Assembly (NCBI GenBank): GCA_947454525.1
Contig: CANGJM010000011.1
Span: 1 to 64,000 of the forward strand
DNA length: 64,000 bases
Reading direction: 5' to 3'
From: Flavobacteriales bacterium
GTDB taxonomy: Bacteria; Bacteroidota; Bacteroidia; Flavobacteriales_D; Crocinitomicaceae
Shown here: positions 10,500-37,625 of the stretch, one piece after another
How positions within the stretch are numbered: position 1 is the first letter of the stretch
How the letters are laid out: every line of letters starts with the position of its first letter
Position numbers and translations under genes: made by a program
Notes under the pieces: model-generated
What the model was told of the DNA's origin: nothing
Databases searched by the model: none
Seen by the model: only the letters and a program-made list of their open reading frames with translations

Positions 10500-10595
10500 T
10501 CCTGCGGAATACCGCATAGCTGGATTGTTAATTTAAGGTTATATGGTGCCGCAGGATTGCAAATCCAGCGGTGCGAGGAATACTGCACCGCTGAA
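10500..10595. repeat. hairpin repeat, composite copy (GGATT type)
   Basis: The core at 10549-10571 has arms CCGCA..GGATT and AATCC..AGCGG around a GCA loop, with one A-A mismatch in an otherwise 10-bp stem. It is flanked on the left by a piece (10500-10516) that recurs beside other copies, and on the right by a partial inverted piece with GCACCGCT at about 10584-10591. It lies between the DUF5686 start and the NYN region. Confidence 0.75.
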
Positions 10596-10704
10596 TTGAA
10601 AATCTAGTTATTCCTAGACAATAAACGAAAATGAAATACGTTTAAATGAATGTGATTCGTGAATAAAAAATCCATTTTTTTTTAAAAAAAAGTATTGTAG
10701 AGAA

Positions 10705-10839
10705 ATGAAAACAAGAAAAAAAATAGTAATTTTGATGTGTATTGTCCATTGCGTTGGTTTTGTCACCTTTAGTCAAAAGATTAAAGGATTGATAGCGACA
10801 AAAACGAACTTTGGACATTTTTTTTGTACTGAAAGATGA
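10705..10839 (+). CDS. 44-residue signal-peptide-like ORF overlapping the NYN gene start
   Basis: An ATG at 10705 opens a 44-codon frame that begins with a good signal-peptide pattern (MKTRKKIVILMCIVHCVGF, then VTFSQ) and has only about 20 residues after it. Its TGA (10837-10839) overlaps the ATG of the NYN gene (10836) in an ATGA arrangement. It could be a tiny exported peptide coupled to NYN translation, or the remnant 5' end of a decayed secreted-protein gene. No family is recognised, and the size makes a chance frame possible, but the signal peptide is convincing. Confidence 0.4.
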   Translation: MKTRKKIVILMCIVHCVGFVTFSQKIKGLIATKTNFGHFFCTER

Positions 10840-11555
10840 GAACCGCTATTCTAATTGATGGCGGTTTTTTTATTCGAAGGTATAAATACATCAAAGGATT
10901 TCAGGTGAATGACTCGGCCGAAATCATGGCGAAAAACTTGGTTTCCTATTGCTTTCGACATATTCAACGCGTGAATAATTACCGTATTCGGTATCGTCTA
11001 GCTCCAACTGAATTATACCGCATTTTTTACTATGATGCCAATCCATTTGATGGGGACTCACATAATCCGATTTCAAAAAAACCTTTCGATTTCAAGAAAA
11101 CAGATCAATATAAATTTAGACATGAACTTTTTTCGGAATTAAAGCGTCAGCGTAAAATCGCGTTGCGTCTGGGCTTTTTGAAAAACGCATCGAAAAACTG
11201 GGTCATTCGAGCAAGATACACGCATGCTCTGATTAACGGAAAAATGAAAATCGAAGATTTAGGTGAGAATGATATTGAGTTTCCCTTAAATCAAAAAGCT
11301 GTTGACATGAAAATTGGACTCGATATCGCCACATTAGCATTTAGGGAACAAGTCGATCAAATCATTTTAATTGCGGGAGACAGCGACTTTGTCCCAGCGG
11401 CAAAGTTTGCACGAAGAGAAGGAGTGGATTTTATTTTAGACCCAATGTTGAATTATATTGACCCGACCCTCCATGAACATATTGATGGATTAATGACCAT
11501 CAAGAAAATGTTTAGTCAAGAAAACGGGGAATTAGGTGAACAAGAATTTCTGTAA
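10836..11555 (+). CDS. NYN-domain (PIN-like) ribonuclease family protein
   Basis: A 239-residue cytosolic protein of the NYN/DUF88 (LabA-like) family, a PIN-related fold that usually cuts RNA. The acidic metal-binding residues are visible: RTAILIDGGFF (Asp8) at the first strand, QKAVDMKIGLDIA in the middle, and LIAGDSDFVPAAKFARREG near residue 185, the classic NYN active-site end. The central insert with many Lys/Arg could bind RNA. No signal peptide. The ATG overlaps the stop of a short signal-peptide ORF. It sits at the edge of the repeat-rich accessory region, apart from housekeeping genes, so a defence or RNA-quality role is possible but not shown. Confidence 0.85.
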   Translation: MRTAILIDGGFFIRRYKYIKGFQVNDSAEIMAKNLVSYCFRHIQRVNNYRIRYRLAPTELYRIFYYDANPFDGDSHNPISKKPFDFKKTDQYKFRHELFSELKRQRKIALRLGFLKNASKNWVIRARYTHALINGKMKIEDLGENDIEFPLNQKAVDMKIGLDIATLAFREQVDQIILIAGDSDFVPAAKFARREGVDFILDPMLNYIDPTLHEHIDGLMTIKKMFSQENGELGEQEFL

Positions 11556-11562
11556 TTCCCAC

Positions 11563-11585
11563 CCAGGATTGCAAATTCATAGTTG
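11563..11585. repeat. degenerate hairpin-repeat trace
   Basis: AGGATTGCAAATTCA keeps the GGATT-GCA-AAT core of the hairpin family, but the outer arms have decayed. It lies just after the NYN gene stop. Confidence 0.35.
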
Positions 11586-11628
11586 AATGATTTAACACAG
11601 AAAAAACATGCTCAGTTAAAAAAATGCG

Positions 11629-11636
11629 TAATGTTG
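11629..11636 (+). promoter_or_regulatory. putative -7 box 4 nt before heme lipoprotein ATG
   Basis: TAATGTTG (one mismatch to TAnnTTTG) is followed by CACT and the ATG at 11641, the same 4-nt spacing seen at other genes here. Confidence 0.35.
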
Positions 11637-11640
11637 CACT

Positions 11641-12003
11641 ATGAAAAAATACGTGCTTATTTTGTGTTCCTTCAGTTTCTTTTCCTGTGAAAAGGATAAA
11701 GTTCCAACACCAATTGTAGTGGGTCCACCTTGTACCATAAGCGATACCGTTTCCTTTCAAAACGAAGTTTTCCCCATCATCAGCAACTATTGTATTTCGT
11801 GCCACAGTTATCCAGGATCCGGAGGCGTTAATTTAGATTCGTATGCGAACATTCAATCCTTTGCCTTATCCGATCAACTCTACCCAACCTTATTGCACAA
11901 TCCAAATGGCATCATCATGCCACCGTTGCCCGCAATTGGACTCGACTCATGTGAAGTGAAATCCATTAAAAAATGGATCGATCAAGGGGCATTGAATAAT
12001 TAA
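11641..12003 (+). CDS. lipoprotein with c-type heme motif
   Basis: A 120-residue exported protein. The signal peptide ends in SFFSC, so Cys16 is the likely lipidated residue. One CxxCH heme-attachment site occurs as CISCH (residues 51-55) in a context (NEVFPIISNYCISCHSYPGSGGVNLDSY) typical of the small cytochrome-like domains of planctomycete/Bacteroidota type. A probable axial Met lies in NGIIMPP near residue 92. It is a single-heme protein of the envelope; the redox partner is unknown, and no oxidase or reductase genes are adjacent. Standalone transcription, convergent with the first RCC1 gene. Confidence 0.8.
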   Translation: MKKYVLILCSFSFFSCEKDKVPTPIVVGPPCTISDTVSFQNEVFPIISNYCISCHSYPGSGGVNLDSYANIQSFALSDQLYPTLLHNPNGIIMPPLPAIGLDSCEVKSIKKWIDQGALNN

Positions 12004-12008
12004 AAGTG

Positions 12009-12034: not shown

Positions 12035-12044
12035 CCTGATGAAC

Positions 12045-13436
12045 TTATTGAATCATGATTTTCTTTACAGAGCCGTTGATATCAAAAAGATAGGTTCCCG
12101 GTAAAAACGAATGGATATCTAGCGTATTGGTTCCCGTTTGGAGGGCATAGTTTCCAACGATTCGTCCAGAAAGATCGCGAAGAATCCCTGTGAAACTTCC
12201 TTCTTCTATGAAAACGTGAAGTTCTGTACTTGCTGGATTTGGATAGACTTGGAAGGTGTTTATTTCCAAGGTGTTTAGGCTTGAAAGATCAGCAATACCG
12301 CAGCTAAATTGACTTGTTGAGGTAGTTGTACCATCTCCATGCTGTCCTACATTATTGGATCCAACTGCACAAATAGACGTGTGATTTACATCTAAAGCAA
12401 GTACATGCGCCCCACTAAAAGTTGAGGAAAACGTAGGGCTTTTTGACAAGGCAAATGAGTTGATGTCTTTATCTAACGTAGAAAGTAAAAATAATGAATT
12501 CTGCGCTTGTGTATTGCCCGTGCCGAGCACGCCTAAGTTGTTGTTTCCCCAGGTGTAGACGTTTTCATCTTCTTTAATTCCGTAACAAAATAAATCACCC
12601 GCTTTGACATCTATCCACTTTGACCCTGGTTCCATTTCGATCGGAACCAACTGATCCCCAATTGCAATACTTCCTAACTGACCAGATCCATTTGAACCAA
12701 ATACCCATAAGGTTGAATCGGACCGAATCGCAGCAGAGGAAAATAACCCTGCAGCGACTGAAACCCAATTGAAGTTTGAACCCGCGCTTTCAAAAACTTG
12801 AATCGGAAGTGTATGTGGATCAGTGGTATTATCTCCTAGCTGTCCAAAGGCGTTATCTCCCCAAGAATAAAGCTTGGCACCATTACCGTTATCAAATAGG
12901 GCTAACGAATGATCAGCCTGAAACGATACTGATTTACATACACCAAGAACATTCACTTGGGTTGGTAAAAGTGCATTTTGTAAACCACCAACACCCAATT
13001 GTCCTGTATAATTCAATCCCCAAGTCCAAAGTGTTCCATCGCTTTTAATTGCTCCGGAATAATAACAACCTGCTTGAATTTGAACCCAAGAAGCTGAATT
13101 ACCCACCTGTTGCGGCAACGATACTGGCATCATGTTTCCGAGTCCGAGTTGTCCAAACTGATTTCCACCCATTGCCCAAAGAGTACTATCTGTTTTAAGC
13201 AACAAAACATGTTCACTACCACAAGAAAGTGTCGCCCATGAGTTGTCTTGACCAATCTGAATCGGAATAACTTCCAAGTTACTTGTTGCAGGATGATCGC
13301 CCCAAACCCATAAGGTACCGTCATTTTTAATTGCCATTGAAAACAACTTTCCGGCACTCACCATTTTCCAAGTGGTTTGGCTTTGAGCATGCATTGAAAA
13401 AAGTATGAATAAGCTAAGGAGGTAAAATGTTTTCAT
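12045..13436 (-). CDS. RCC1-repeat protein with T9SS sorting domain (copy 1)
   Basis: A 463-residue secreted protein. The signal peptide ends at MHAQSQ. Residues about 22-370 are RCC1-type repeats: blocks of about 50 residues containing SDGTLWTWG.N..GQLG, which fold into a beta-propeller. After about residue 385 comes a type A T9SS sorting domain (QVYPNPAS near its start, then a RDLSGR strand and a PGTYLFDI strand), so it is exported by T9SS and probably surface-attached. It is a paralog of the next gene, and the DNA encoding the two sorting domains is nearly identical. The propeller's partner is unknown; in this setting RCC1 repeats are probably not GTPase regulators. Confidence 0.9.
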   Translation of the reverse strand: MKTFYLLSLFILFSMHAQSQTTWKMVSAGKLFSMAIKNDGTLWVWGDHPATSNLEVIPIQIGQDNSWATLSCGSEHVLLLKTDSTLWAMGGNQFGQLGLGNMMPVSLPQQVGNSASWVQIQAGCYYSGAIKSDGTLWTWGLNYTGQLGVGGLQNALLPTQVNVLGVCKSVSFQADHSLALFDNGNGAKLYSWGDNAFGQLGDNTTDPHTLPIQVFESAGSNFNWVSVAAGLFSSAAIRSDSTLWVFGSNGSGQLGSIAIGDQLVPIEMEPGSKWIDVKAGDLFCYGIKEDENVYTWGNNNLGVLGTGNTQAQNSLFLLSTLDKDINSFALSKSPTFSSTFSGAHVLALDVNHTSICAVGSNNVGQHGDGTTTSTSQFSCGIADLSSLNTLEINTFQVYPNPASTELHVFIEEGSFTGILRDLSGRIVGNYALQTGTNTLDIHSFLPGTYLFDINGSVKKIMIQ

Positions 13437-13527
13437 TTGTTCTAGTATTGGTGATTAAATGTACGAAAAAAGTGAAGGATTATTTAAACAAGCTAGTTTT
13501 TAATCAGTTAAAGGATGTGAATCTCAT

Positions 13528-14928
13528 TTACTCCACCACAAACTTCGCCACTGCTCCATTTATTTCAACAAGGTAATTGCCTGGCGAAAACGTGTGGATG
13601 TCGATTGTATTTGTTCCAGCTGTCAATGGAATGTTTGCCAAAACACGTCCAGAAAGATCACGAAGAATCGCTGTGGAACTTCCTTCTTCGATGAAAACGT
13701 GCAGTTCTGTACTCGCTGGATTTGGATAGACTTGGAAGGTGTTTATTTCCAAGGTGCTGACGCTTGAAAGGTCACCGATCCCACATTGAAACGAAGAACT
13801 AGCGGTCGTTGAGCCAAGACCAAGTTGTCCTTGGTAATTTGCGCCAGCGGTACAAATGGAATAACGATCTACAGCAATCCCAACTACATGCTCTCCATAC
13901 AAGGTAGACCCAGATGCATCTGTTGCACCGACTGACAAAGCCAGCGTGGAAAATCCATTGGACTCAGGAGCGAAAAAATTAGCAACTGGACTCGGTGAGG
14001 TTTGTTGCTGTTGCGTTCCTATTCCTAATTCTCCTTGTCCATTATATCCCCAAGACCATGTTTGATTGTCCATTGTTACGCCATAACAAAAACCGGAACC
14101 AGCTATCACACGTTCCCATGTATCTCCATTGCCGATTTGCGTCGGAAGTAACCTTGGCTGTACATCACCCAGTCCTAATTGCCCATTTCCATTAAAGCCC
14201 CAACTCCATGCGGTTCCATCTGTTTGGACACCACAGCTATAAAGGTAACCTGAACTCACATTTTTCCATGTTGTACTTCCAATTTGCAATGGTGTGGAAG
14301 CATCAACTTGAGTATTATCTCCAAGCTGACCAGCAACATTAAATCCCCAAGCAAATAATTGTCCAGTTGTTTTCAACGCCAAGGTATGAGCGCCACCCAA
14401 AGAAGCACTCTGCCAATCGATGTCTGTTCCCACTTGCGTTGGGACACTTGTAACGTTCGTATTCCCAATTCCCAGCTGACCATAGTCGTTGTATCCCCAC
14501 ATCCAAAGTGTTCCATTGCTTTTAATGGCCGCACTATGCGCAAGTCCGGCATAGATGGAAACCCAATCTTGATCTGTTCCAATTTGAACAGGAGTGTCGA
14601 CTTGATTCACTTGATTACTTGAAATTTGTCCGACAGAATTCAAGCCCCAGCCCCACAAGGTTCCATCTGACTTAATCGCAAGCGTGTGAAATGCACCACA
14701 TGCCACCTTAATCCAATTGTGTTCTGTTCCAAGTTGAACAGGCGCTTGTGTTCCAGCATTACCCGTTCCTAGTTGACCACTTCCATTGAAACCCCAACAC
14801 CAAAGTGTGCTGTCTGAACGAAGAGCAAATCCGTATTCTGTTCCAGCACTCACCATTTTCCATGTGGTTTGACTCTTTACAGAAAATGTTAGAGTCAAAA
14901 TCAAACTTAAAGCATATAGAGTTCTCAT
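13528..14928 (-). CDS. RCC1-repeat protein with T9SS sorting domain (copy 2)
   Basis: A 466-residue secreted paralog of the downstream RCC1 gene. A signal peptide ends near FSVKSQ, then about seven RCC1-type repeats (each with LW.WG.N..GQLG), then a type A T9SS sorting domain from about residue 390. The mature N-terminus TTWKMVSAG and the sorting-domain start TLEINTFQVYPNPASTEL are identical in both copies, while the propeller bodies differ in many positions. Both are on the minus strand, separated by 91 bp without an obvious terminator. Role: probable surface or secreted propeller; ligand unknown. Confidence 0.9.
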   Translation of the reverse strand: MRTLYALSLILTLTFSVKSQTTWKMVSAGTEYGFALRSDSTLWCWGFNGSGQLGTGNAGTQAPVQLGTEHNWIKVACGAFHTLAIKSDGTLWGWGLNSVGQISSNQVNQVDTPVQIGTDQDWVSIYAGLAHSAAIKSNGTLWMWGYNDYGQLGIGNTNVTSVPTQVGTDIDWQSASLGGAHTLALKTTGQLFAWGFNVAGQLGDNTQVDASTPLQIGSTTWKNVSSGYLYSCGVQTDGTAWSWGFNGNGQLGLGDVQPRLLPTQIGNGDTWERVIAGSGFCYGVTMDNQTWSWGYNGQGELGIGTQQQQTSPSPVANFFAPESNGFSTLALSVGATDASGSTLYGEHVVGIAVDRYSICTAGANYQGQLGLGSTTASSSFQCGIGDLSSVSTLEINTFQVYPNPASTELHVFIEEGSSTAILRDLSGRVLANIPLTAGTNTIDIHTFSPGNYLVEINGAVAKFVVE

Positions 14929-15283: not shown

Positions 15284-16207
15284 ATGGCGAACAAAACTCC
15301 ATTATCCATAGCAGATCAAATTACCTTGTTGAAGAACCGAGGGATGATTTTCAAGGATGAGCAATCTGCACAAAATATTCTAGAATATATTAGTTACTAC
15401 CGTCTTAAAGGATATTGGTGGGACATGCAGGAGGATTCAAGAATGCATAACTTGAAACCCAATACTTATTTTGAAGAAATCGTTGAGCGTTATAACTTCG
15501 ATCGTAAATTGAGATTAATACTTTTTGACGCCGTAGAAAGAATTGAAATTGCCTTACGATCTAAAATGATTTACCATTTATCAATGTCATATGGTAGCTT
15601 GTGGTATTTAGATTCCAAACTGTTTGAAAAAACTAAATTACCATCTGACCTTTCAATTACAATTCATCAAAATATAATTTCCGAACTCAAAAAAGAATTT
15701 CATAGAAGTCAAGAAATATTTATAAAGGATCAAAGATTCAGATTCCCTAATGAAGATTCGGATTCTTGGAAAATTCTAGAAATAGCTTCAATGGGCACCT
15801 TGTCAAAGTTGTACAAAAACCTAGTTCATCAACTTCCTGAAAAATCTGCAATTGCTAAAGAAATGGGATTAAATATGCACAGTGAACTTTCAAGTTGGTT
15901 AGAAGCGATTACATATGTACGAAATATAATTGCTCATCATTCAAGGCTTTGGAGTAGAAATATGGTAAAAATCCCAATTGAAAAAATTAACAACCCGAAA
16001 TCAGATTGGTTAAACGGTTCCCTGACACATGTACAATGCAAAAAACCATTTTTAATCATTACAACAATGATCTATTTGTGCGATGAGATTAGTCCTACGA
16101 ATCAAATAAAAACCAAGATTTTAAATCTATTTAAAATGAATCCGAATCTACCGATTTACAAACTTGGATTTTTAGATAATTGGCAAAAACACCCCGTTTG
16201 GAAATAA
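15284..16207 (+). CDS. Abi_2-family abortive infection protein (AbiF/AbiD-like, HEPN)
   Basis: A 307-residue cytosolic protein of the Abi_2 family. The N-terminus fits the family (TPLSIADQITLLKNRGM, ISYYRLKGYW, FDRKLRLILFDAVERIEIALRSK). Near residue 213, RNIIAHHSRLW gives the HEPN ribonuclease motif R-x4-H (Arg213, His218). Such proteins are thought to cut RNA during phage infection and to be restrained by a neighbouring small RNA. A strong terminator hairpin ends 6 nt before the ATG, matching that layout. Length is normal for the family. It is flanked by hairpin repeats and T9SS genes, in accessory DNA. A phage trigger and toxicity are inferred from the family. Confidence 0.9.
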   Translation: MANKTPLSIADQITLLKNRGMIFKDEQSAQNILEYISYYRLKGYWWDMQEDSRMHNLKPNTYFEEIVERYNFDRKLRLILFDAVERIEIALRSKMIYHLSMSYGSLWYLDSKLFEKTKLPSDLSITIHQNIISELKKEFHRSQEIFIKDQRFRFPNEDSDSWKILEIASMGTLSKLYKNLVHQLPEKSAIAKEMGLNMHSELSSWLEAITYVRNIIAHHSRLWSRNMVKIPIEKINNPKSDWLNGSLTHVQCKKPFLIITTMIYLCDEISPTNQIKTKILNLFKMNPNLPIYKLGFLDNWQKHPVWK

Positions 16208-16221: not shown

Positions 16222-16407
16222 TGCGCCGCTGGATATGCCTTCCCCGCATCGCAGGATTTGCAATCCTGCGGAAATCAAAAAGACATAAAAGACTTACTTC
16301 ATTTTAGCTTTTTCCAAAATTTTAATTGTTGTTAATAGTACCGCAGCAGTGCAACTGCAGCAGTGCAAAGTGCGGTGTGTGGTACCGCAGGATTGCAAAT
16401 CCAGCGG
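16222..16407. repeat. composite repeat with three hairpins
   Basis: This carries a perfect hairpin (16250-16271, GGATT type, opposite orientation), then an AT-rich block (about 16280-16335) that closely matches the block at 34744-34800 and 36413-36469, then a GCAGT-type hairpin at 16341-16363 and a GGATT-type hairpin at 16385-16407. It fills the gap between the convergent AbiF-like gene and the barrel gene at 16477. Confidence 0.8.
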
Positions 16408-16410
16408 TGC

Positions 16411-16476
16411 GATGTGCGGTGCGAAGTACGGTGCAAAGCGCGGTGCGATGTGCGGTGCAAAGTGCGGTGCGATGTG
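16411..16476. repeat. 12-bp tandem repeat array
   Basis: Five consecutive 12-bp units (GATGTGCGGTGC, GAAGTACGGTGC, AAAGCGCGGTGC, GATGTGCGGTGC, AAAGTGCGGTGC) and part of a sixth run directly from the hairpin at 16385-16407 to the stop codon of the barrel gene. The GCGGTGC end is the same as the right end of the hairpin elements, so the array probably arose by slippage from one of them. Confidence 0.8.
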
Positions 16477-17694
16477 CTACCTCATCCTCAATCCAATTCC
16501 TACATTCATTCCAAAATTGATGTACTTGCGGTAACTGAAAATCTGCGGTGGGGTTTTGACACTGTTGAAATTCAAATAAGGGGTAAAACTGATGAACGAT
16601 TGTTTGAATCCAGTTCTAAACTCGAGTTGTAGGCTTTGTTGGAAATTCCATTTTGGAACAAAGAACGATTCCAGGCCAATGCCGCTGCGACTCGGATAAT
16701 ACCCGATTTGTTCTTTAAATCGTGTGCCCAATGAAGCGCTGTAACGTGGTGTCAAAGAGAACTTTTCCCACTGAAATTGATATCCAATGCTCACTGGTAC
16801 TTGAACGAAGGTATATTTGTTTTGATCCGTGTACGTTTTGTCGATATACGTCGTATCGAATTGATTTAAGTTAGACGGATCCACTTGAATCAACGCATCT
16901 ACATACTTGAAGTCCGCTTGTTCACCGATACTCGTGATAAAAGCTCCTATCCCCCATTGAAAATTCCCTGCATACGTGTAAAGGTTCAATCCAAGGTTCT
17001 TTGTTTTTAACAGGGACTCTGACTGTGTCAACATGACATCATAGGAACTCACTAAATTGAAATCGCTATATAAGTAACTTCGCGTAAAATTCAAGCCGGA
17101 ATAGATTTCCAATTCCAGTCTGCGTTCACGGGCTTGCATCGGGATTGATGTTCGTTTTACCGTGAGGTTTGGTATCATTAACAAACTGATAAACAATTCA
17201 TTTAAGCGTTTCATTGTAAGTGTTACTCGGGACGTATCCGAAGCAAGATCTTCAGGATTCCCAGTATAAAGCGGTAGCGAATAATTAGAAAATACTGTGG
17301 ATTCCAAATGATGATCCGCATGCACATTCGACACGCGAGACACGGAGGACATTGAAAAAATGGGTTCAGACGTTTGTGCTTCTGTCTTCTCGGTTGTTTG
17401 ACTTTTACGGTTGGAAACTCGTGTAGTCTCCCTCCCCTGTTTCTTTTGCGTTTGATTGGAAGCTTTGTACCAAGATTCATTTCTTCCCAAACGAAACTGC
17501 AGCATTCCGTAAACGACTACGGTGCATAGTGTCGAAGCACCAAAAATCCACCAGAAAAGCAAACCTTTCTTTTTACGCTTCGGTTCTTCCAAGCGTTTTT
17601 CCAGGTCCGACAGAAAATCGGCATCCAAATCAAGGGATTGATTGAATACCTCGTTTCGATAGTCATTCTCAAATGAAGTGAACTGATTCTTCAT
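16477..17694 (-). CDS. membrane-anchored protein with C-terminal barrel-like domain, probable anti-sigma partner
   Basis: A 405-residue protein coupled to an ECF sigma gene: its ATG overlaps the sigma TGA (ATGA at 17694-17691). Residues 1-45 are acidic and helical and would be cytoplasmic; KRKKKG precedes one transmembrane helix (about residues 48-68); then comes a Ser/Thr/Lys-rich linker and, from about residue 190, a region with amphipathic strands ending GMNVGIGLRMR, like an outer-membrane beta-barrel. This layout (cytoplasmic helix, membrane helix, envelope domain) fits a sigma regulator, but it lacks a recognisable zinc-binding or FecR domain. The frame extends 19 residues upstream inside the sigma gene; the overlap start is preferred. 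Confidence 0.7.
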   Translation of the reverse strand: MKNQFTSFENDYRNEVFNQSLDLDADFLSDLEKRLEEPKRKKKGLLFWWIFGASTLCTVVVYGMLQFRLGRNESWYKASNQTQKKQGRETTRVSNRKSQTTEKTEAQTSEPIFSMSSVSRVSNVHADHHLESTVFSNYSLPLYTGNPEDLASDTSRVTLTMKRLNELFISLLMIPNLTVKRTSIPMQARERRLELEIYSGLNFTRSYLYSDFNLVSSYDVMLTQSESLLKTKNLGLNLYTYAGNFQWGIGAFITSIGEQADFKYVDALIQVDPSNLNQFDTTYIDKTYTDQNKYTFVQVPVSIGYQFQWEKFSLTPRYSASLGTRFKEQIGYYPSRSGIGLESFFVPKWNFQQSLQLEFRTGFKQSFISFTPYLNFNSVKTPPQIFSYRKYINFGMNVGIGLRMR

Positions 17695-22461: not shown

Positions 22462-22465
22462 TTTT

Positions 22466-22526
22466 AGCTTTTTGGTACCGCAGCAGTGCAACTGCAGCGG
22501 AACATGGAGCAGTGCGACTGCAGCGG
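22466..22526. repeat. two adjacent GCAGT-type hairpins with partial AT-rich block
   Basis: TTTTAGCTTTTT (the right part of the AT-rich block of the composite repeats) is joined directly to a GCAGT-GCA-ACTGC hairpin (22478-22500), and a second copy with loop GCG follows at 22506-22526. The space between the two reads GGAACATGGAGC. This looks like a deletion derivative of the composite element. Confidence 0.75.
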
Positions 22527-28493: not shown

Positions 28494-28498
28494 GATTA

Positions 28499-28655
28499 CC
28501 GCAGCAGTGCAACTGCAGCGGTGCGTGGAGCAGTACAACTGCAGCGTAACGGAGGTACGGTGAGGTATTGTCGCAGCAGTGTAACTGCAGCGTAACGGTA
28601 TAACTGCAGCGTAACGGTATCGTGGTACTGCTGGATTGCAAATCCAGCAATGCGT
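28499..28655. repeat. cluster of five hairpin repeats
   Basis: Tandem copies follow the stop of the 945-residue gene: GCAGT-type at 28499-28521, about 28527-28546 (loop ACA), 28571-28592 (loop GTA) and a half copy near 28600-28612, then a GGATT-type copy at 28629-28649 with perfect GCTGGATT/AATCCAGC arms. Spacers contain GCGTAACGG and GGTACGG words. The 327-bp gap up to 28820 otherwise holds an AT-rich stretch with TAATTTTA at about 28784-28791. Confidence 0.8.
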
Positions 28656-29456: not shown

Positions 29457-29530
29457 ACACTTTGTGCTAATTTCTTTGCGGATAAGTTTTTTCAAGTTTT
29501 GGATAAGGTTCTATATTGCTGTAAGTAGGT

Positions 29531-29580
29531 ATTCTGCTGGATTGAAAATCCAGCAATGCGGTGTTGCAAATCCAGCGATG
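29531..29580. repeat. hairpin repeat, GGATT type, plus half copy
   Basis: GCTGGATT and AATCCAGC form a perfect 8-bp stem with loop GAA at 29536-29554, followed by the right half of another copy (TTGCAAATCCAGCGATGCG) at about 29563-29581. Confidence 0.7.
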
Positions 29581-29637
29581 CGTGGTTTACGCTTAAAAAT
29601 GAACAAATAATTATTAAACGATTTAGATAAATCAGAA

Positions 29638-29817: not shown

Positions 29818-29873
29818 AAAAGAAGTTTCCAACGGTATGTGTTCCACTTTCAAGCGTTAAATTTATCATTACT

Positions 29874-30452: not shown

Positions 30453-30613
30453 GGGAAGATCTTACGCATTTATAACGCTAAGCTCACTACAACAAATTAG
30501 CATAAAAGATCGATGTTCAACTTTTTTGAAATTTTAGCGATATTTGGGTAACAAACCGTGAATTGACTGCAAATCGGAGTGATTGATTTAGTAACACAAG
30601 CAAAAAGAGTCAA

Positions 30614-31159: not shown

Positions 31160-31183
31160 ACGATTCAAGGCATTATTCACTCC

Positions 31184-31612: not shown

Positions 31613-31619
31613 TGATTTC

Positions 31620-32297
31620 ATGCATCGTTTAAACTGGAAAACAAGCTTTCTCACCTTGTTCACAGGTGTTCTTTTAGCACAACAGGATGTACTCGCTACA
31701 ACAAAGAATCCGTCCATTAATTTACTTCCCTCGTTCGAAAATCGGGACTTCAATAGACACATTGATTCCACCGCAAAGAAATCAACGATTGTTTACCTTG
31801 CTTTAGACGGAGAGAGAGACAGCAGCAAAAAAGCAAAATCCATCCTGGGGGACCCACTCGTTTCAGACAGTAAATTTGTCATGAAATTAAAACAGACATG
31901 TTCCACCTCCCTAGACAAATGTATCTACGATCAAATAACGGTGGACTACTTCTCCCTTTTCCAGAAGTTAACACAAGAAAAACAGTACACTTTGCTAAAA
32001 GATGGTTCCTTGGAAGTGAAGCTAGTGAAAATCAAGAGTGAAAATGAAGATCAAAAAGTCGAAGTATTTCTGTCAACCTATTTGAACGGAGTTAAAACCG
32101 ATTCAATATTAATCTATAATTATCTAAATATCCCTGAAAATTCAGTTGCGAACGAAATGATTTACTACATCGATGAAACGCTACGCATTTGGCAACTTTC
32201 AGTTACCTATGAAGAAAACTCCATAAGCGTTGACTCATGGGAAAGGTTCGTCATTGACCAGAAAACAGGTCATATAAACAAGGACACTAATTTCTAA
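31620..32297 (+). CDS. exported hypothetical protein
   Basis: About 225 residues. The ATG at 31620 gives a signal peptide HRLNWKTSFLTLFTGVLLA, then QQDVLA; an ATG at 31602 adds six residues and overlaps the previous gene by 11 bp, which would couple the two. The mature part is polar and mixed alpha/beta (VEVFLSTYLNGVKTDSILIYNYL) with no recognisable domain. It is probably periplasmic. It belongs to the run of unknown exported genes that follows the lipoprotein gene at 31184. Confidence 0.5.
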   Translation: MHRLNWKTSFLTLFTGVLLAQQDVLATTKNPSINLLPSFENRDFNRHIDSTAKKSTIVYLALDGERDSSKKAKSILGDPLVSDSKFVMKLKQTCSTSLDKCIYDQITVDYFSLFQKLTQEKQYTLLKDGSLEVKLVKIKSENEDQKVEVFLSTYLNGVKTDSILIYNYLNIPENSVANEMIYYIDETLRIWQLSVTYEENSISVDSWERFVIDQKTGHINKDTNF

Positions 32298-32364
32298 CAA
32301 TCTTAAACGCGCGTGCCGTTCACACAATAATTTTTGCCATTGTTCGTTATGAATACGTTCAATT

Positions 32365-32372
32365 TATTTTTC
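32365..32372 (+). promoter_or_regulatory. -7 box 4 nt before ATG of OMP gene (copy 1)
   Basis: TATTTTTC (one mismatch to TAnnTTTG) with ATCC before the ATG at 32377. The same TCCATGCA start context is conserved in the duplicate gene at 34129. Confidence 0.4.
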
Positions 32373-32376
32373 ATCC

Positions 32377-32940
32377 ATGCAAAAAATAGCACTCTTACTC
32401 ATCGTACTAATTTGTCAAGTACCTTTCCTTCAATCACAAGTCAATAAATTAGATTCAACAAATCAATTTGGACTTCACCTAGGTGTAAATTTTGGAGGTG
32501 GTTTTGCTGGTGGGACCGTTGGGGGTGGTGGATTAAAAATGTGTCCACGAATTGGAGTCTCTTACAAAGACAGATTCGTCCTCGGATTAGAATCAAATTC
32601 AGACTATCAAATTGTTTACAGGAAGGATACCATAATGGATCCGAGCACTTGTTTAATAAAATGGGTTGGTCCATTTGTTCGATACTATTTCTATCCTGCT
32701 CACTATAAGTTGAATCTGATTGCGAGTGTAAATTATGTATATGGAAGCGTTTACGTTTGGAGTGAAGAAGAGAAATCTAGAACGACCTACAATACCGCTT
32801 TTTTAGGCTTGGGATTTACTTATAAAGTAAAACAAACACACATAGAATTTGGATATCGCTACACCTTTTTGTTGAATAACACGCCAAACGTAGTGAAGTG
32901 GAGCAATTCTATATTTCTGGGAGTAACGAGGAATTTTTAG
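32377..32940 (+). CDS. outer-membrane barrel protein, duplicated (copy 1)
   Basis: A 187-residue protein with a signal peptide (QKIALLLIVLICQVPFLQSQ) and a body starting LDSTNQFGLHLGVNFGGGFAGG, then strands such as FVRYYFYPAHYKLNLIASVNY, FLGLGFTYKVKQTHIEFGYRYTFLLN and the terminal IFLGVTRNF (Phe end). It is an eight-stranded-type small barrel. Copy 2 at 34129 has the same length and very similar sequence, including the DNA just past the stop, so this is a recent duplication. Ligand unknown. Confidence 0.75.
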   Translation: MQKIALLLIVLICQVPFLQSQVNKLDSTNQFGLHLGVNFGGGFAGGTVGGGGLKMCPRIGVSYKDRFVLGLESNSDYQIVYRKDTIMDPSTCLIKWVGPFVRYYFYPAHYKLNLIASVNYVYGSVYVWSEEEKSRTTYNTAFLGLGFTYKVKQTHIEFGYRYTFLLNNTPNVVKWSNSIFLGVTRNF

Positions 32941-32945
32941 AAAGG

Positions 32946-32955
32946 AACCGCACCG
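32946..32955. repeat. truncated repeat end (GCACCG)
   Basis: GAACCGCACCG directly after the stop of copy 1 matches the left end of the composite repeat at 34697-34708 that follows copy 2. In copy 1 the rest of the element is absent. Confidence 0.4.
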
Positions 32956-33004
32956 TTAGATTTCACCAACTATGTTAATCAACGAAAGAAAAAGTAATTT
33001 TTAT

Positions 33005-34105
33005 ATGAATATCCAAGCTAACTCTTGTGATTTACGTTCAAAGCTTCCTTTATGGATTCTGTTTTTCATCACCCTTTATGGAAACAGCGTTTCGGCGCAA
33101 CAAATGGATTACTACCAACACATCAATCGCGCGGAAGAATTGTTTGTGTTAAACCATGATCCTTCTTGCTTTAAGGAGTTTAATAAAGCATTCCACACCA
33201 AAGCCCGATACTTTGCCAAAGACGCGTATATCGCCGCACAAATTGCCCTTTACCTCAAAGACGATCAAAAAGTATTGCTGTACTTAAAACGCGCTTTTGA
33301 ACTTGGACTTCCATTTACGGCATTGACATCCGCTCCGATTTTTCAGCGCATTGAAACAAATTCCATTTATCCAAAAATTGTCCAAGTATACCAATCCTGT
33401 CAGAAACCAACATTTGATGCAGTGGTGCGCGATAAAATCTATGATCAATGCTTTAAAAGCGATAGCTTGAAATTTTACATGGGGAGGGATTCCAAAAAAA
33501 TAGCGCAATTCACACAATATGAAGATTCATTTAGAGACTATTTGAAAGTGGAATTTTTATCCAAAGGGATTTTCCCGAATGAAAACCTGATTGGAATCGC
33601 AACGGATTCGATTTATGAAGATTTTATGCGTCGTTTTGGACATGTTGATCCATATGCTGCAGAGGAAAAACAACTTTTTGGTTCAACGAATTCAATTCCC
33701 ACAGAATACGGACTCGTGTCAAAATACTCGTTCTCCGTTCTGCTACACTCTTCTTGCTCCTTCCCAAATTACCAGAAGTTGCTTTACGAAGCTGTATTAA
33801 ACGGATACATGCAGCCCATTGAATATGGACTCCTCCACGAGACAAGTGTTTCTTGGAATCAAGGAATGAAAAACCCACATGAAGGCTGTAGTCCTTTATT
33901 GAGTGATGCGTATTACAACATTTTGGGATTTGACCCGACGAAGTCCACACAAACAAAAATAGATGAGTCCGATACAGAAGGAATGAAACGAGTCGAAAAG
34001 AATAGAGCTGCTATTGGCATGCAGAAATACAGTATTGACCAATTAAAACGCATCGATCAAAAGAATTTAGGTATTAAATTTTTCTTTTATTTCTTGGAAA
34101 GATGA
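33005..34105 (+). CDS. exported hypothetical protein of a two-member local family
   Basis: About 366 residues with a signal peptide (RSKLPLWILFFITLYGNSVSAQ). Its N-terminal third looks like TPR-type helices (CFKEFNKAFHTKARYFAKDAYIAAQIALYL, YLKRAFELGLPF). It shares order and short motifs with the protein at 52542 (helical pairs, GLPF/GVPF, PNENLIGIA versus PGEKLIGLS, a Tyr-Gly segment near the end). Function unknown. The frame also opens at 32972; the ATG at 33005 fits the signal peptide. Its stop lies 23 nt before the second OMP copy, so it is sandwiched between the duplicated genes. Confidence 0.6.
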   Translation: MNIQANSCDLRSKLPLWILFFITLYGNSVSAQQMDYYQHINRAEELFVLNHDPSCFKEFNKAFHTKARYFAKDAYIAAQIALYLKDDQKVLLYLKRAFELGLPFTALTSAPIFQRIETNSIYPKIVQVYQSCQKPTFDAVVRDKIYDQCFKSDSLKFYMGRDSKKIAQFTQYEDSFRDYLKVEFLSKGIFPNENLIGIATDSIYEDFMRRFGHVDPYAAEEKQLFGSTNSIPTEYGLVSKYSFSVLLHSSCSFPNYQKLLYEAVLNGYMQPIEYGLLHETSVSWNQGMKNPHEGCSPLLSDAYYNILGFDPTKSTQTKIDESDTEGMKRVEKNRAAIGMQKYSIDQLKRIDQKNLGIKFFFYFLER

Positions 34106-34128
34106 GCGCACATGTAAAACATTTATCC

Positions 34129-34692
34129 ATGCATAAAAGAGCACTCTTACTCATCGTACTGATCAGTCAAGTACCTTTCTTTCAATCCCAAGTCAATAAA
34201 TTAGATTCAACAAATCAATTTGGACTTCACCTAGGCGGGAACTTTGGCGCTGGTTTTGCTGCTGGCACCGTTGGTGGTGGCTTATTAAAAGTATGTCCAC
34301 GAATTGGCGTAAACTACAAAGAGAGATTCGTCTTGGGAATAGAATCAAATTCAGATTATCAAATTGTTTACCTAAAGAATTCTTCGATAGAGCCTAGTCT
34401 CCGCTTAATTAAATGGGTTGGTCCATTTGTCCGATATTATTTCTACCCTGCTCATTATAAGTTGAATCTTATGGCAAGTGTAAATTATGTATTTGGAAGC
34501 GCTTATAAATATAGCTCTGAACTGAAATATAGAGAGACATTCAATACCGCTTTTTTAGGCTTGGGTTTTAGTTACAAAGTAAAACACACACAGATTGAAT
34601 TTGGATGTCGCTATACCTTTTTAATGAATAACACACCGATTTTAGTAAGGTGGACCAATTCTTTATTTTTGGGTGTAACGAGGAATTTTTAG
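34129..34692 (+). CDS. outer-membrane barrel protein, duplicated (copy 2)
   Basis: A 187-residue near-copy of the protein at 32377: signal peptide HKRALLLIVLISQVPFFQSQ, same LDSTNQFGLHLGGNFG opening and same ending LFLGVTRNF. The frame is open from 34102, overlapping the previous stop, but the start context (ATCCATGCA) shared with copy 1 places the ATG at 34129. Differences are concentrated in the presumed surface loops (for example DTIMDPSTC versus NSSIEPSLR), which suggests diversification of an exposed face. It is followed by a complete composite repeat. Confidence 0.75.
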   Translation: MHKRALLLIVLISQVPFFQSQVNKLDSTNQFGLHLGGNFGAGFAAGTVGGGLLKVCPRIGVNYKERFVLGIESNSDYQIVYLKNSSIEPSLRLIKWVGPFVRYYFYPAHYKLNLMASVNYVFGSAYKYSSELKYRETFNTAFLGLGFSYKVKHTQIEFGCRYTFLMNNTPILVRWTNSLFLGVTRNF

Positions 34693-34698
34693 AACGGA

Positions 34699-34857
34699 AC
34701 CGCACCGCTTGACGTGCATCCTGCGGAATACAGCACCGCTGGAAAAGACATAAAATGTTTAGTTCTTTTAGCTTTGTTGAAAATTTTAATTGTTGTTAAG
34801 AGTTCCGCAGCAGTGCAACTGCAGCGGAACAGCGTGGATTACAATCCAGCGGTGCAT
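34699..34857. repeat. composite repeat, full copy
   Basis: Left end CGCACCGCT (34700-34708); a second GCACCGCT at 34733-34740; AT-rich block (34744-34800, with GACATAAAATGTTTAG and TTTTAATTGTTGTTAA); GCAGT-type hairpin at 34805-34827; GGATT-like hairpin at 34832-34852 and right end AGCGGTGC (34848-34855). The outer ends are inverted repeats of each other. It lies between convergent genes. Confidence 0.8.
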
Positions 34858-34868
34858 AGATGACAAAT

Positions 34869-35648
34869 TTATCCCAAACGAAAAGGCACATCATCTTGAT
34901 GTAAGAGATAATAATTCATCAATGATTTCTGAAGTCGTTTATCCTTAAACATTCTGCGATACAAATCTTCACGAACCTTCATTAAATACGCATCATCTGA
35001 ACTAAAATGAGGCAAGTTCTTTTGGCAAACCTTTGCTTTGTTTTGAGTGAACGCAAGGTCAATTGGTGATGTTTCTTGATCAAAATCCGAGAAAATCGCT
35101 TCGTAACAAAAGGCCTCCAGGAGCGTGTAATCTTTTTGCCAATTACTTTCTCGCTGTCCGTTCAATCCGATGCAGACATGAGCCTGAACACTTGAGTCCG
35201 GATTCACTTTGTCGCAATAGAAAAACCGAGAAGCTACTTCAACTAATTCACGCTTACTAAACGTTTGCGTTTTGTTTGAAGCATTCTTTTCTATGGCCTC
35301 AATTGTTTGACGAACATAGCCTTGCAATGTAGAATCGTTAGACAATTGTTCAATGTAGGATTGTTTAAGCAAATTCGTGTCTGGATACAAATCAAACAAT
35401 GTCCGGCGCATGTCAACCTGCTCCGGCGCATGAATTCTTGGTGTATTCAAGATGAGGTAATCAAAACGTCGGTGCACATTCCAATAAGGACTATCAGCTG
35501 AAAGGGAGGCCATGGCAGAAACTTTTTCCTTTCCAGACACTTCGTAAGGAAACAATTCGATGTGTAATTGAGCAGGAAAGGGAACCTTTTGCGCACAAAT
35601 GGGCTGAATGAATAATACCAGGAATAAGAATCGAATCAGTTTGACCAT
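34869..35648 (-). CDS. exported hypothetical protein
   Basis: A 259-residue protein. The ATG at 35648 gives a signal peptide (VKLIRFLFLVLFIQPICAQ); the frame is open 22 codons further upstream into a hairpin repeat, which is not coding. The mature part is helix-rich and polar, with several Cys (FFYCDKVNPDSSVQAHVCIGLN, FCYEAIFSDF, KVCQKNLP). It is probably periplasmic. No family recognised. The 3' end lies 14 nt beyond the composite repeat at 34699-34857. Confidence 0.6.
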   Translation of the reverse strand: MVKLIRFLFLVLFIQPICAQKVPFPAQLHIELFPYEVSGKEKVSAMASLSADSPYWNVHRRFDYLILNTPRIHAPEQVDMRRTLFDLYPDTNLLKQSYIEQLSNDSTLQGYVRQTIEAIEKNASNKTQTFSKRELVEVASRFFYCDKVNPDSSVQAHVCIGLNGQRESNWQKDYTLLEAFCYEAIFSDFDQETSPIDLAFTQNKAKVCQKNLPHFSSDDAYLMKVREDLYRRMFKDKRLQKSLMNYYLLHQDDVPFRLG

Positions 35649-35698
35649 GTAGGAAATACGTTTAAGTGTTGATAGAGTTACACCGTACTCGCGGATAG

Positions 35699-35743
35699 TA
35701 CCGCAGCACTGCAACTACAGCGGTGCACAGTGCGGTGCATGAG
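35699..35743. repeat. hairpin repeat, variant GCAGT type
   Basis: CCGCAGCACT-GCA-ACTACAGCGG at 35701-35723 has two mismatched positions in the inner stem, followed by the 12-bp-type words GCGGTGCACA and GTGCGGTGC. It lies upstream of the exported-protein gene at 34869-35648. Confidence 0.6.
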
Positions 35744-35768
35744 TTTGAGTCATTTAGCAAAAAATCTA

Positions 35769-36077
35769 TTATTGATTGATTTTACTTGTTTCATCCCAAC
35801 GATTATCGAAAATTGCGATGATGGAAATTTTATTCTTTTTAACTGAATAATATACAGAAAGAACTTTGCTTAAAACTGCTCTTCTAAATTTCTTCTTTTT
35901 TGATTCAGAATAAATTGTGGGATAAAGGATGATTATTTTCTCAAAATCAGCTAAAACCTTATAGAAATTAGTTATTTCTTTTTCAGTGAAATTCTTACGT
36001 AGATAAAAGACAATTTCTTTAGCGTTTTCTAAAGATTGTTTTGAATATTCAACAGTGAGGTTCTTTTTCTCAGCCAT
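35769..36077 (-). CDS. ParE/RelE-family toxin
   Basis: A 102-residue protein of the type II toxin (RelE/ParE) superfamily: a helical N-terminus (VEYSKQSLENAKEIVFYLRKNFTEKEI), then AILSKVLSVYYSVKKNKISIIAIFDNRWD, the strand pair and conserved Tyr/Arg-rich core of the fold. These toxins cut mRNA on ribosomes (RelE) or inhibit gyrase (ParE); which applies here is not clear from sequence. Its start overlaps the last 8 bp of the antitoxin gene upstream, the usual antitoxin-toxin coupling. No transmembrane segment. Confidence 0.85.
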   Translation of the reverse strand: MAEKKNLTVEYSKQSLENAKEIVFYLRKNFTEKEITNFYKVLADFEKIIILYPTIYSESKKKKFRRAVLSKVLSVYYSVKKNKISIIAIFDNRWDETSKINQ

Positions 36078-36306
36078 TTTTCAATTCTTCCCAAAATTGA
36101 GACGATGAAATTACATTTCCACTTTCAATGTCATCCATTCCATTTCTCAACATTTTCTGTTGATTTTCGGAAAGATCATCCCACCAATCATCTTTCGATT
36201 TTGATTTTTTCAGACCATCAAGAAACTCAATCATGTTCTCATCTGAAAGCCTATTAATCCAAGCAATCAAATCTAATTTCGTTTGGTTAAGTTCAGCTGT
36301 TGACAT
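36070..36306 (-). CDS. type II antitoxin of the ParE-like pair
   Basis: A 78-residue small acidic protein (MSTAELNQTKLDLIAWINRLS at the N-terminus, then DDWWDDLSENQQKMLRNGMDDIESG). The C-terminal half should wrap the toxin; the N-terminus may dimerise but has no obvious HTH. This size, charge and position upstream of a RelE/ParE toxin are typical of the antitoxin class seen with YafQ/ParE-like toxins in Bacteroidota. It has a textbook promoter (36325-36354). Confidence 0.8.
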   Translation of the reverse strand: MSTAELNQTKLDLIAWINRLSDENMIEFLDGLKKSKSKDDWWDDLSENQQKMLRNGMDDIESGNVISSSQFWEELKNG

Positions 36307-36324
36307 TCTTTGTTTGTTTAAAAC

Positions 36325-36354
36325 AAATATAATGAGTTTAATGAATTAATCAAA
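36325..36354 (-). promoter_or_regulatory. promoter of the ParE-like toxin-antitoxin operon
   Basis: TTG at 36354-36352, then exactly 19 nt, then TATATTTG at 36332-36325 on the minus strand: a perfect Bacteroidota-type promoter. The leader to the antitoxin ATG is about 15 nt. Confidence 0.75.
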
Positions 36355-36365
36355 TCATTTACAAT

Positions 36366-36534
36366 CCCGCACCGCTAGAAGTGCATTCTGCGGAACACCG
36401 CACCGCTTGAAGAGACATAAAATGTTTAGTTCATTTTAGCTTTTTTGAAAATTTTAATTGTTGTTAAAAGTTCCGCAGCAATGCAACTGCAGCGGAACAG
36501 AGTGTAACAGCGTGGATTACAAACCAGCGGCGCG
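36366..36534. repeat. composite repeat, full copy
   Basis: Left end CCGCACCGCT (36367-36376), second GCACCGCT at 36400-36407, AT-rich block at about 36413-36469 nearly identical to 34744-34800, GCAGT-type hairpin (inner arm GCAAT) at 36473-36495, then a CGTGGATTACAA element and right end CAGCGGCGC at about 36525-36533. It separates the two toxin-antitoxin-like pairs. Confidence 0.8.
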
Positions 36535-36563
36535 AAGTGTAATGCGAGGTTCAGTATATGGAT

Positions 36564-36986
36564 TCATTTCGCTTTATTTGAAATTACGTGTAGATTTTGT
36601 AAGATGTCAACCTGGATAAGCATCCGGTTTTTAAGGTCTTCATTTGCTTGCATGAAAACACGTTTAATTTCATCCTTGTAATAATTCTTTATCTCTTTTT
36701 TTGAGTAAACCGATGAAATGACAACGACCCCACTTCCCTCGAAAACCAAGAAATAAATACGGTATCCGCCGCTTTTCTCCTTGTTGATACTATTTTTCAG
36801 TCTTGATTTCTTGCAGGAAGTGTTTTTGCCTTTTGGCCCAAGTGTTTCATCAACATTTCGTATGCGCTCAATGGTTTCCAATTCTTGAAAAAAGGCACAG
36901 ATGTCCAATTGAACGTTTTTGGTTGCCGCTTTTTTTGACAATTTGGCAATCTCTTGATTCGCTCTTTGCGTCAAGTAAAATTTCAT
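36564..36986 (-). CDS. RelE-like protein, probable toxin of a second pair
   Basis: A 140-residue cytosolic protein. The N-terminus KFYLTQRANQEIAKLSKKAATK and middle GYRIYFLVFEGSGVVVISSVYSKKEIK are the alpha-helix and strand pair of the RelE fold; the C-terminal helix (LKNRMLIQVDILQNLHVISNK) is longer than usual. Basic residues near the strands fit RNA binding. It begins 16 nt after the stop of a coiled-coil gene, and the two share one strong promoter. This is an unusual partner combination; the toxin assignment is based on fold-like sequence and location. Confidence 0.6.
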   Translation of the reverse strand: MKFYLTQRANQEIAKLSKKAATKNVQLDICAFFQELETIERIRNVDETLGPKGKNTSCKKSRLKNSINKEKSGGYRIYFLVFEGSGVVVISSVYSKKEIKNYYKDEIKRVFMQANEDLKNRMLIQVDILQNLHVISNKAK

Positions 36987-37002
36987 TTGAATTAAAAACG
37001 AA

Positions 37003-37464
37003 TTAGCTGTTTTTCAAATGATCCGCCAGGTCATTTGTTAAGTCCTTCCATTCTTGATCGTGCTTCAAGTCGATACTTGATAAAATGTCCTCTGCGGCTT
37101 CTTCCATTTCCGAAATAACGTTTATGAAGTGAGCAAGTGTGGATTTTAACGATTCTTTGTAGAATGCATGTTTCGCAAAAATACGGTGGTGGGATTTTGA
37201 TTTCTCAACGAGGATAAGCATTAATGCAGCTACCGCTTTGAAATTCTTTTCCATTTCTGTTGAACATCCATGGATGTTCGTGATTTGTTGGAATGCACTT
37301 TCATTGATGGACTCTCCTAATTTTATGAGGGTATCCATGTTTTTTTTAAGCTTATTCGATTGATCAAGAAAATCATTGATATCATGGAAAATTACATCAG
37401 ATTTCTCTTCGTATTTCTTGATTTTCTTACTAATTTGTTGAGTTGTTGTTTCCATGATATGCAT
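37003..37464 (-). CDS. helical coiled-coil protein, possible antitoxin-like partner of RelE-like protein
   Basis: About 153 residues, almost entirely helical with heptad-like spacing (QISKKIKKYEEKSDVIFHDINDFL, EKNFKAVAALMLILVEKSKSHHRIF) and an acidic C-terminus. No HTH or DNA-binding motif is obvious. The frame is open from a TTG at 37500, but that TTG and the following TAACTTTG (37478-37471) form a perfect promoter inside it, so the start is the ATG at 37464, or possibly 37455. It precedes the RelE-like gene by 16 nt. Size and fold are unlike known RelE antitoxins. No family recognised. Confidence 0.6.
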   Translation of the reverse strand: MHIMETTTQQISKKIKKYEEKSDVIFHDINDFLDQSNKLKKNMDTLIKLGESINESAFQQITNIHGCSTEMEKNFKAVAALMLILVEKSKSHHRIFAKHAFYKESLKSTLAHFINVISEMEEAAEDILSSIDLKHDQEWKDLTNDLADHLKNS

Positions 37465-37470
37465 GCTACA

Positions 37471-37500
37471 CAAAGTTAAATCATTTACGCTTTCATTCAA
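37471..37500 (-). promoter_or_regulatory. promoter of the coiled-coil/RelE-like pair
   Basis: TTG at 37500-37498, 19 nt, then TAACTTTG at 37478-37471 on the minus strand, a perfect consensus. The first ATG is 6 nt downstream (37464), so the mRNA is leaderless or nearly so. Confidence 0.75.
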
Positions 37501-37581
37501 CGCGATAAACTGGATTTTATTTTAAATGAATTAAAATTGATTCGAGAAAATTAACGTAGGAATGCAACTAAAACGATCAGG

Positions 37582-37625
37582 GTACCGCAGCAGTGCAACT
37601 GCAGCGGTGCAAAGCGGAACAGCGG
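37582..37625. repeat. hairpin repeat, GCAGT type
   Basis: GCAGT-GCA-ACTGC with CCGCA/AGCGG flanks at 37585-37607, followed by GTGCAAAGCGGAAC and AGCGGAAC words. This is the rightmost copy in the window. Confidence 0.75.

Follow-up and report, generated by a model that had tools for sequence, protein, structure and literature searches.

Hairpin repeats at the locus

We analysed 64,000 nucleotides (positions 1 to 64,000, forward strand) of contig CANGJM010000011.1 from the draft genome GCA_947454525.1 of a Flavobacteriales bacterium belonging to the Crocinitomicaceae. This whole stretch is called the window, its contig C11, and the relatives compared with it are given by our working numbers (G076 and so on). 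The window harbors short hairpin repeats between genes, and C11 also encodes a RAYT (a tyrosine transposase associated with repetitive extragenic palindromes, REPs). We suggest that the hairpins are REP elements that were spread by RAYTs.

The hairpins share the frame CCGCA-N5-GCA-N5-AGCGG. Allowing up to two mismatches, this frame is found 10 times in the window (eight exact, one with one mismatch, one with two), against a mean of 0.38 and a maximum of 2 in 100 dinucleotide shuffles. The repeat family described in an earlier, sequence-only reading of this DNA is thus real. Its estimate of about 15 copies is fair, since 15 window copies match one of two arm consensuses in at least 17 of 19 core letters, 14 of them on the plus strand and one on the minus strand. 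Two of the 15 (22501 and 28522) are partial tandem pieces, and a weaker relative lies at 12007. Both arm versions of that reading, GGATT/AATCC and GCAGT/ACTGC, are present, but several of its copies are looser than claimed. Those at 28629 and 29536 have a T where the frame has an A and lack the CCGCA/AGCGG ends, the loop of 29536 is GAA, and the copies at 16341 and 16250 respectively end in AGCAG and lie on the minus strand. The repeats of the window occupy nine intergenic places, judged by gene limits that we set ourselves with starts adjusted by eye. A short imperfect palindrome at several intergenic places is what is expected of a REP; eight of the 29-nt hairpins, folded as DNA, gave -8 to -12 kcal/mol.

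The first copy (10546..10574, plus strand) has GGATT/AATCC arms and the trinucleotide TGC at its 3' foot; to its left lies a decayed minus-strand REP (10487..10524, decay read by eye). The next cluster consists of a minus-strand GGATT/AATCC copy (16246..16274), a spacer (16278..16335), a plus-strand GCAGT/ACTGC copy with foot TGC and one altered outer stem base, GCAG for GCGG (16338..16366), and a plus-strand GGATT/AATCC copy with foot TGC (16382..16410). It runs into plus-strand 12-bp tandem units that resemble the REP foot (GCGGTGCRAWGT; 16404..16487). All further intact or nearly intact copies are on the plus strand. A GCAGT/ACTGC copy with foot AAC (22475..22503) is followed by a partial tandem copy (22501-22529). 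Another GCAGT/ACTGC copy, with foot TGC, begins 3 bases after a stop codon (28496..28524). After an extra partial copy (28522-28550) come a GCAGT copy with foot AAC (28568..28596) and a GGATT copy with foot TGC, in which T-A replaces an A-A mismatch (28625..28653); together these two form a GCAGT-GGATT composite. A GGATT copy (29531..29559) is followed by a half copy (29553-29581).

Further downstream, a GCAGT/ACTGC copy whose outer stem GTTC/GAAC is fully paired gave the strongest fold of the eight tried (34802..34830). It is preceded by a decayed minus-strand REP, read by eye (34706..34743), and a spacer (34742..34799). A GCAGT-type copy with foot TGC (35698..35726) has two broken pairs (GCACT/ACTAC), and one with foot AAC (36470..36498) has a single broken pair (GCAAT/ACTGC); in neither variant (35701 and 36473) is the change compensated. 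The latter copy also has a decayed minus-strand REP, read by eye (36373..36410), and a spacer (36410..36467) on its left. The last copy (37582..37610) has GCAGT/ACTGC arms and foot TGC.

The draft assembly comprises 2.83 Mb in 34 contigs, of which C11 makes up 4.4%. A genome-wide search for the frame with up to two mismatches gave 47 hits against 15 for the reversed control, so many two-mismatch hits outside the window are chance. What we call the strict search used a looser core, written after the window copies were known. It gave 24 matches, 14 of them on C11 where about 1 is expected by length. As single copies are not independent, we also counted clusters, delimited by us, and 6 of 12 are on C11. 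The exact frame of the sequence-only reading gave 14 matches, nine on C11. In the stretches of this genome that were read, 35 copies have at least 17 of 19 letters and 41 at least 16. Nearly all copies on C11 are on one strand, and GC/AT skew near the copies is too weak for orienting contigs relative to replication. A separate GGATT-type cluster, with eight loose matches on the plus strand spread across about 5 kb, is found at G000:C10:64000-70500 (L034), on a contig other than that of the RAYT; some of its copies have the foot GGC.

The RAYT gene and its flanking hairpins

The sequence-only reading had proposed looking for a RAYT-type Y1 transposase. A search of the genome with the Pfam family Y1_Tnp (E 0.001) gave one match, at C11:100978-101553, 63 kb past the copy at 37582. 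The protein has 191 residues and scores 90.9 bits against NCBIfam NF047646 (REP_Tyr_transpos; cut-off 80). Against the IS200 transposase family NF033573 it scores 21.5 bits, under the cut-off of 55, and it is thus not assigned to IS200/IS605. Inverted GCAGT hairpins flank the gene, 127 nt before and 24 nt after it, an arrangement typical of canonical REPs. This finding favors mobile REP-like hairpins among the options that had been listed.

In brief, the protein has the motifs TNHLH (as TNHLHM), YIHNNP and a Ser-Ser tail (YSSAS). These match NH[LIV]H, YIH[QN]NP and the Ser-Ser tail of RAYT subclass 2.6, and by its motifs the protein appears to fit that subclass. No sequence of a solved structure in the PDB matched at E 0.1. 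When named genomes were scanned with this RAYT, 23 loci were obtained, and the closest with a family or genus label were Crocinitomicaceae, Brumimicrobium and Crocinitomix. RAYT homologues, fragments included, were found in 43 of 100 genomes of the family (E 0.001), and in 45 of 299 genomes of the order at the stricter threshold of E 1e-30. Successive partial RAYT frames comprising the C-terminal part only were seen at L105 (G085:C152:1-1116) and L106 (G067:C6:391531-392937).

Arm types across relatives

A quick tree was built from 63 different RAYT proteins of the loci read, and hairpins were looked for in their flanks. Fifty-three of them were given an arm label (17 types), partly by eye, and 10 were left unlabelled. 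The labels require 19 changes on the tree, against 34 to 43 in 500 shuffles. GCAGT (7 rows) and GGATT (10 rows) are separated by a single change, which was matched by 1 of 1000 shuffles. Across the relatives, arm type follows the RAYT tree.

Within the same genus, RAYTs with GGATT flanks are found in G076 and G328. No GGATT-flanked RAYT was found in the draft assembly studied here, and the GGATT copies of this genome therefore look orphaned.

Compensated arm types in relatives include GGGTT/AACCC, GCATT/AATGC, GGACA/TGTCC and GGGC/GCCC. A pattern that prescribed nothing beyond loop and frame hit 21 of 100 family genomes, with no hits for the reversed control; a few of the hits (G001, G040) have uncompensated arms. 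A looser pattern hit 35 of 86 genus genomes, with 4 hits for the control, and gave many single hits with uncompensated arms that may be chance. We also observed an array of seven GCAGT hairpins with foot TGC, repeated directly every 88-89 bp, at L156:481-1029 (G067:C10).

For covariation within this genome, 31 copies were aligned and compared with 500 shuffles by five measures. Stem pairing was 85.2% against 76.2% in shuffles, and the covariation score 0.248 against 0.130 (0 of 500 in both cases). In the inner stem this signal stems from the two arm types. Among hairpins flanking RAYTs of many lineages (38 hairpins, selected on pairing and an AGC foot), all 10 stem pairs changed on both sides, covariation was 0.637 against 0.157 in shuffles (0 of 500), and further pair types numbered 22 against 19.0 (32 of 500). 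The percentage paired in this set is biased by the selection; the variety of arms is less so.

These results divide the claim that both arms change together. It holds across the relatives, but this genome contains two types plus one-sided or broken changes, which is largely the outcome that the sequence-only reading had named as refuting it, the compensated series being in relatives. We read the two arm versions in this genome as separate REP families with one-sided decay, and this would be why only two arm types are seen. The A-A mismatch said to be kept in most copies is indeed retained in 28 of 33 distinct copies genome-wide.

The foot of the hairpin

Canonical REPs carry GT[AG]G at the 5' foot. 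Neither GTAG nor GTGG was found at the 5' end of 35 copies of this genome. The feet observed here are TGC, AAC or AGC, located on the 3' side, and CGTC, the tag of another REP class, is absent from among them.

The 63 RAYTs have 126 flank sides, of which 90 have a hairpin within 260 nt; the nearest one was taken regardless of its foot. Of these 90 hairpins, 59 have AGC outward of the loop, at a distance of 9 to 11 nt, and 8 have it inward. At exactly 10 nt after the loop the numbers are 49 and 5. Since RAYTs share descent, these counts are not independent. Counted by RAYT, AGC is outward in 41 of 53 and inward in 11 of 53; counted by arm type, in 13 and 7 of 17. Two more AGC-footed arm types that the scan missed were recognised by eye, and the CGAGCG and CAAGCG types are without AGC. 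Read on the opposite strand, this tag is 5'-GCT, located at the foot of the hairpin. PMC8266576 (Nucleic Acids Res 2021) proposes a guide at the hairpin foot of canonical REPs, and by its corresponding place the 5'-GCT tag may act as one. We found no description of an AGC foot for these REPs in titles and the beginnings of abstracts.

In 14 other genomes of the genus, 26 of 74 copies have the AGC foot. It is present in 39 of 44 copies of G082, G045, G037 and G060, and two of the G045 copies flank the RAYT of that genome. Copies flanking the GGATT-type RAYTs of the genus mostly have the foot TGC.

A probable REP/RAYT system of Bacteroidetes

Based on these observations, we interpret the hairpins as REP elements that a RAYT (an HuH/Y1 nuclease) of the Bacteroidetes subclass 2.6 recognises and spreads, and we consider this very probable (roughly 0.87). 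The repeats, the single RAYT match with its inverted flanking copies, the agreement of arm type with RAYT, the paired arm changes across relatives and the foot tag are observed; RAYT binding, cleavage and movement are inferred from the family. The GCAGT family would belong to the RAYT at C11:100978-101553 with its two inverted flanking copies. The GGATT family would belong to a sister RAYT lineage, which we found in genus-mates but not in this assembly. Each hairpin, folded as a single strand, would be bound by the RAYT, with the arms, the GCA loop, the mid-stem mismatch and the foot trinucleotide setting specificity and strand choice. The enzyme would then cut beside the foot, and single REPs or inverted doublets would be moved to other intergenic sites. 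Most copies of this genome look old and are now in tandem or decayed. The hairpins are probably once-mobile elements.

Inverted doublets are seen in relatives. Among neighbours within 200 nt in 14 genomes, 21 inverted pairs are in the order minus-plus, with feet outward, and 4 in the order plus-minus, while 41 pairs are direct. In the window, the spacers at 16278, 34742 and 36410 are alike, and each has a minus-strand partner on its left, nearly intact at 16246 (paired with 16338) and decayed at 34706 and 36373. These three pairs are likely remnants of REPINs (inverted REP doublets around a spacer).

Subclass 2.6 RAYTs are described from Bacteroidetes, with "atypical secondary structures" as flanks that lack GT[AG]G (PMC6006769, BMC Genomics 2018). 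The system described here is alike in host group, in the three protein motifs, in its atypical flanking structures without GT[AG]G and in having copies elsewhere in the genome. It differs in that the protein has WK and not WQ, in that arm type tracks RAYT lineage, and in the AGC foot conserved across arm types, no foot tag being named in the part of that paper available. Canonical GTAG REPs (PMC2817692, BMC Genomics 2010; PMC8266576) share the imperfect palindrome, agreeing REP and RAYT trees, a mid-stem mismatch as in Escherichia coli REPs and the layout of a RAYT between inverted REPs, described in PMC2817692. They also share clustering near the RAYT, which PMC2817692 reports within 200 kb in a few species. 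They differ from the present REPs, which have no 5' GT[AG]G head, are low in copy number and have a conserved tag that is 3'-sided as read (5'-GCT on the opposite strand). REPINs (PMC3116915, PLoS Genet 2011) resemble the inverted REP doublets around a spacer in G045, G037 and G082, whereas in this genome there are three shared-spacer pairs, two with decayed left halves, and most close neighbours are direct. CGTC-tagged REPs reported from Bacteroidetes (PMC3733652, BMC Genomics 2013) are likewise short tagged palindromes; those do not flank RAYTs, whereas the present hairpins do and have no CGTC tag.

It should be noted that several points weigh against a RAYT-spread REP family. Copy number is low, with 24 strict matches and 35 copies at 17 of 19 letters, whereas canonical REPs usually exceed 100. 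The WQ motif of subclass 2.6 is absent from the RAYT of this genome, which has WKSGNH instead; WQ is found in a number of relatives' RAYTs. Within this genome, neither two-sided pair changes (5, with 4.6 in shuffles; 281 of 500) nor further pair types (12, with 10.6 in shuffles; 99 of 500) are above chance, and 17 of 18 close neighbour pairs are direct, not inverted. At 16 of 19 letters or better, AGC is the foot of 3 of 41 copies (TGC of 20, AAC of 10), and two of these three are the RAYT flanks; the dispersed copies therefore differ from the RAYT-flanking ones. The TGC and AAC feet speak against recent mobility, and most copies may be old, or members of a TGC-using lineage. G037 has 10 GCAGT-like pattern hits, yet no RAYT match. 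The arm labels and hairpins are our own assignments, partly by eye, the set of 38 hairpins was selected on pairing and AGC, and the orphanhood of GGATT depends on a draft assembly.

The variable island

The copies at 10546 and 37582 form the left and right edges of a 27-kb variable island (10546-37610) between two conserved genes. In the genus-mate G174, window regions 107-10574 and 37581-42097 are contiguous and overlap in one hybrid REP, whose left flank is like copy 10546 and whose arms and right flank are like copy 37582. In G248 the same outer genes are joined with no REP between them. G328, G326, G368, G258 and G076 have some of the window modules in another order or number, and G076 lacks the genes between the REPs at 36470 and 37582 at that site.

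Among the modules are a gene with an NYN domain, one of the AbiD/Abi_2 type, one with RCC1 repeats and others with secretion-signal tails; no Pfam match was obtained for several small genes of the island. The AbiD/Abi_2-like gene (15284-16207) adjoins a REP cluster. Two adjacent minus-strand genes (12045-14928) contain repeats spaced by about 150 nt and are 74% alike over 300 nt; the first encodes the RCC1-repeat protein with a secretion tail. Duplicated pieces, 83-84% alike and 1752 bp apart, are found at 32370-34712 (genes 32377-32940 and 34102-34692). A small minus-strand gene at 37003-37500 matches the ISL3 transposase family at 23.3 bits (cut-off 23). A toxin-antitoxin pair at 36564-37500 was considered and dropped, as Pfam gave it no support and PADLOC had no match for the first gene.

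We speculate that REPs of the same orientation are working junctions of the island, which recombine by RAYT action on single strands or by homology so that modules between two fixed chromosomal genes are gained and lost; this is rather unlikely as matters stand. If true, one such event would have left the hybrid REP of G174 as its scar. Of 72 match ends, 63 were kept as synteny breakpoints, which are repeated across relatives and not independent. REP gaps (2069 bp) contain 31, other gaps (1471 bp) 19 and genes 13. Per base, breakpoints are not clearly enriched in REP gaps over other gaps, and REP-driven exchange is therefore a lead and not a result.

Alternative explanations

One could regard the two arm types as unrelated repeats that are merely alike, with no covariation signal. 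The one-sided or broken changes beside the two types in this genome would agree with this, but the relatives have further compensated arm types with common loop and frame, arm types track the RAYT tree with few changes, and the GCAGT and GGATT types have frame, loop, mismatch and foot in common. We regard this explanation as largely refuted and extremely improbable. A different objection concerns the assignment of GGATT: a single resident RAYT might mobilise both arm types, and GGATT would then be no orphan family. Direct GCAGT-GGATT composites recur, always in the same order (seven pairs, found here and in G328, G361 and G326), and the foot TGC is common to both types in this genome (14 GGATT-type and 6 GCAGT-type copies). 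We nevertheless hold this doubtful, as GGATT- and GCAGT-flanked RAYTs separate by one change on the tree, and RAYTs with GGATT flanks exist in the genus-mates G076 and G328.

The hairpins might instead act at the RNA level, as transcript 3' ends or as RNase targets or protein-binding hairpins under selection in the transcript. Three places start shortly after a stop codon (3 bases after it at 28496, 14 at 22475 and 75 at 29531), and all eight hairpins tried fold better than their shuffle mean. Yet 12 hairpins were examined and none is directly followed by a T-run; the 12 bases after each have five T at most (15 bases beyond the hairpin at 28625 there is a TTTTT). Nor does any of the 13 terminator-like sites of 20000-38000, the range scanned, which holds the copies from 22475 onward, coincide with a hairpin. 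On these two grounds we reject intrinsic terminators as the form of the transcript 3' ends proposed in the sequence-only reading. Rfam gave no window match at gathering score, the copies occur in tandem, convergent and divergent gaps by our reading of the gene list, and the same hairpin flanks a RAYT in other genomes. An RNA-level role is thus very improbable. The hairpins could also be attC-like sites, or recombination sites of another kind, at the borders of gene cassettes, and be recombined by the RAYT or by REP homology. Their single orientation between modules (one strand has 14 of the 15 window copies), the contiguity of the flanks of 10546 and 37582 through one hybrid REP in G174 and the missing genes in G076 would agree with this. 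We consider it quite unlikely: synteny breaks are about equally dense per base in both kinds of gap, and the outer ends of the hairpins read GTT...AAC, the reverse of the order in attC. None of the six PF00589 matches of the genome is on C11, so no tyrosine recombinase was found beside the array, and an integron attC array is rejected.

Implications

We regard these hairpins as a well-supported REP/RAYT case, of which the foot tag and the island deserve a test. The REPs of Bacteroidetes RAYTs are called only "atypical" in the available part of PMC6006769, and their anatomy here becomes testable. The AGC foot is constant across most arm types, and the GCA loop and mid-stem mismatch are constant across the GCAGT and GGATT families. 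That arm type tracks RAYT lineage while foot, loop and mismatch stay the same hints at the parts that carry specificity. This genome has two arm families, and a resident RAYT was found for only one of them, a natural experiment on whether a REP family dies after loss of its transposase. The island edged by REPs raises the question whether such repeats shape gene content too.

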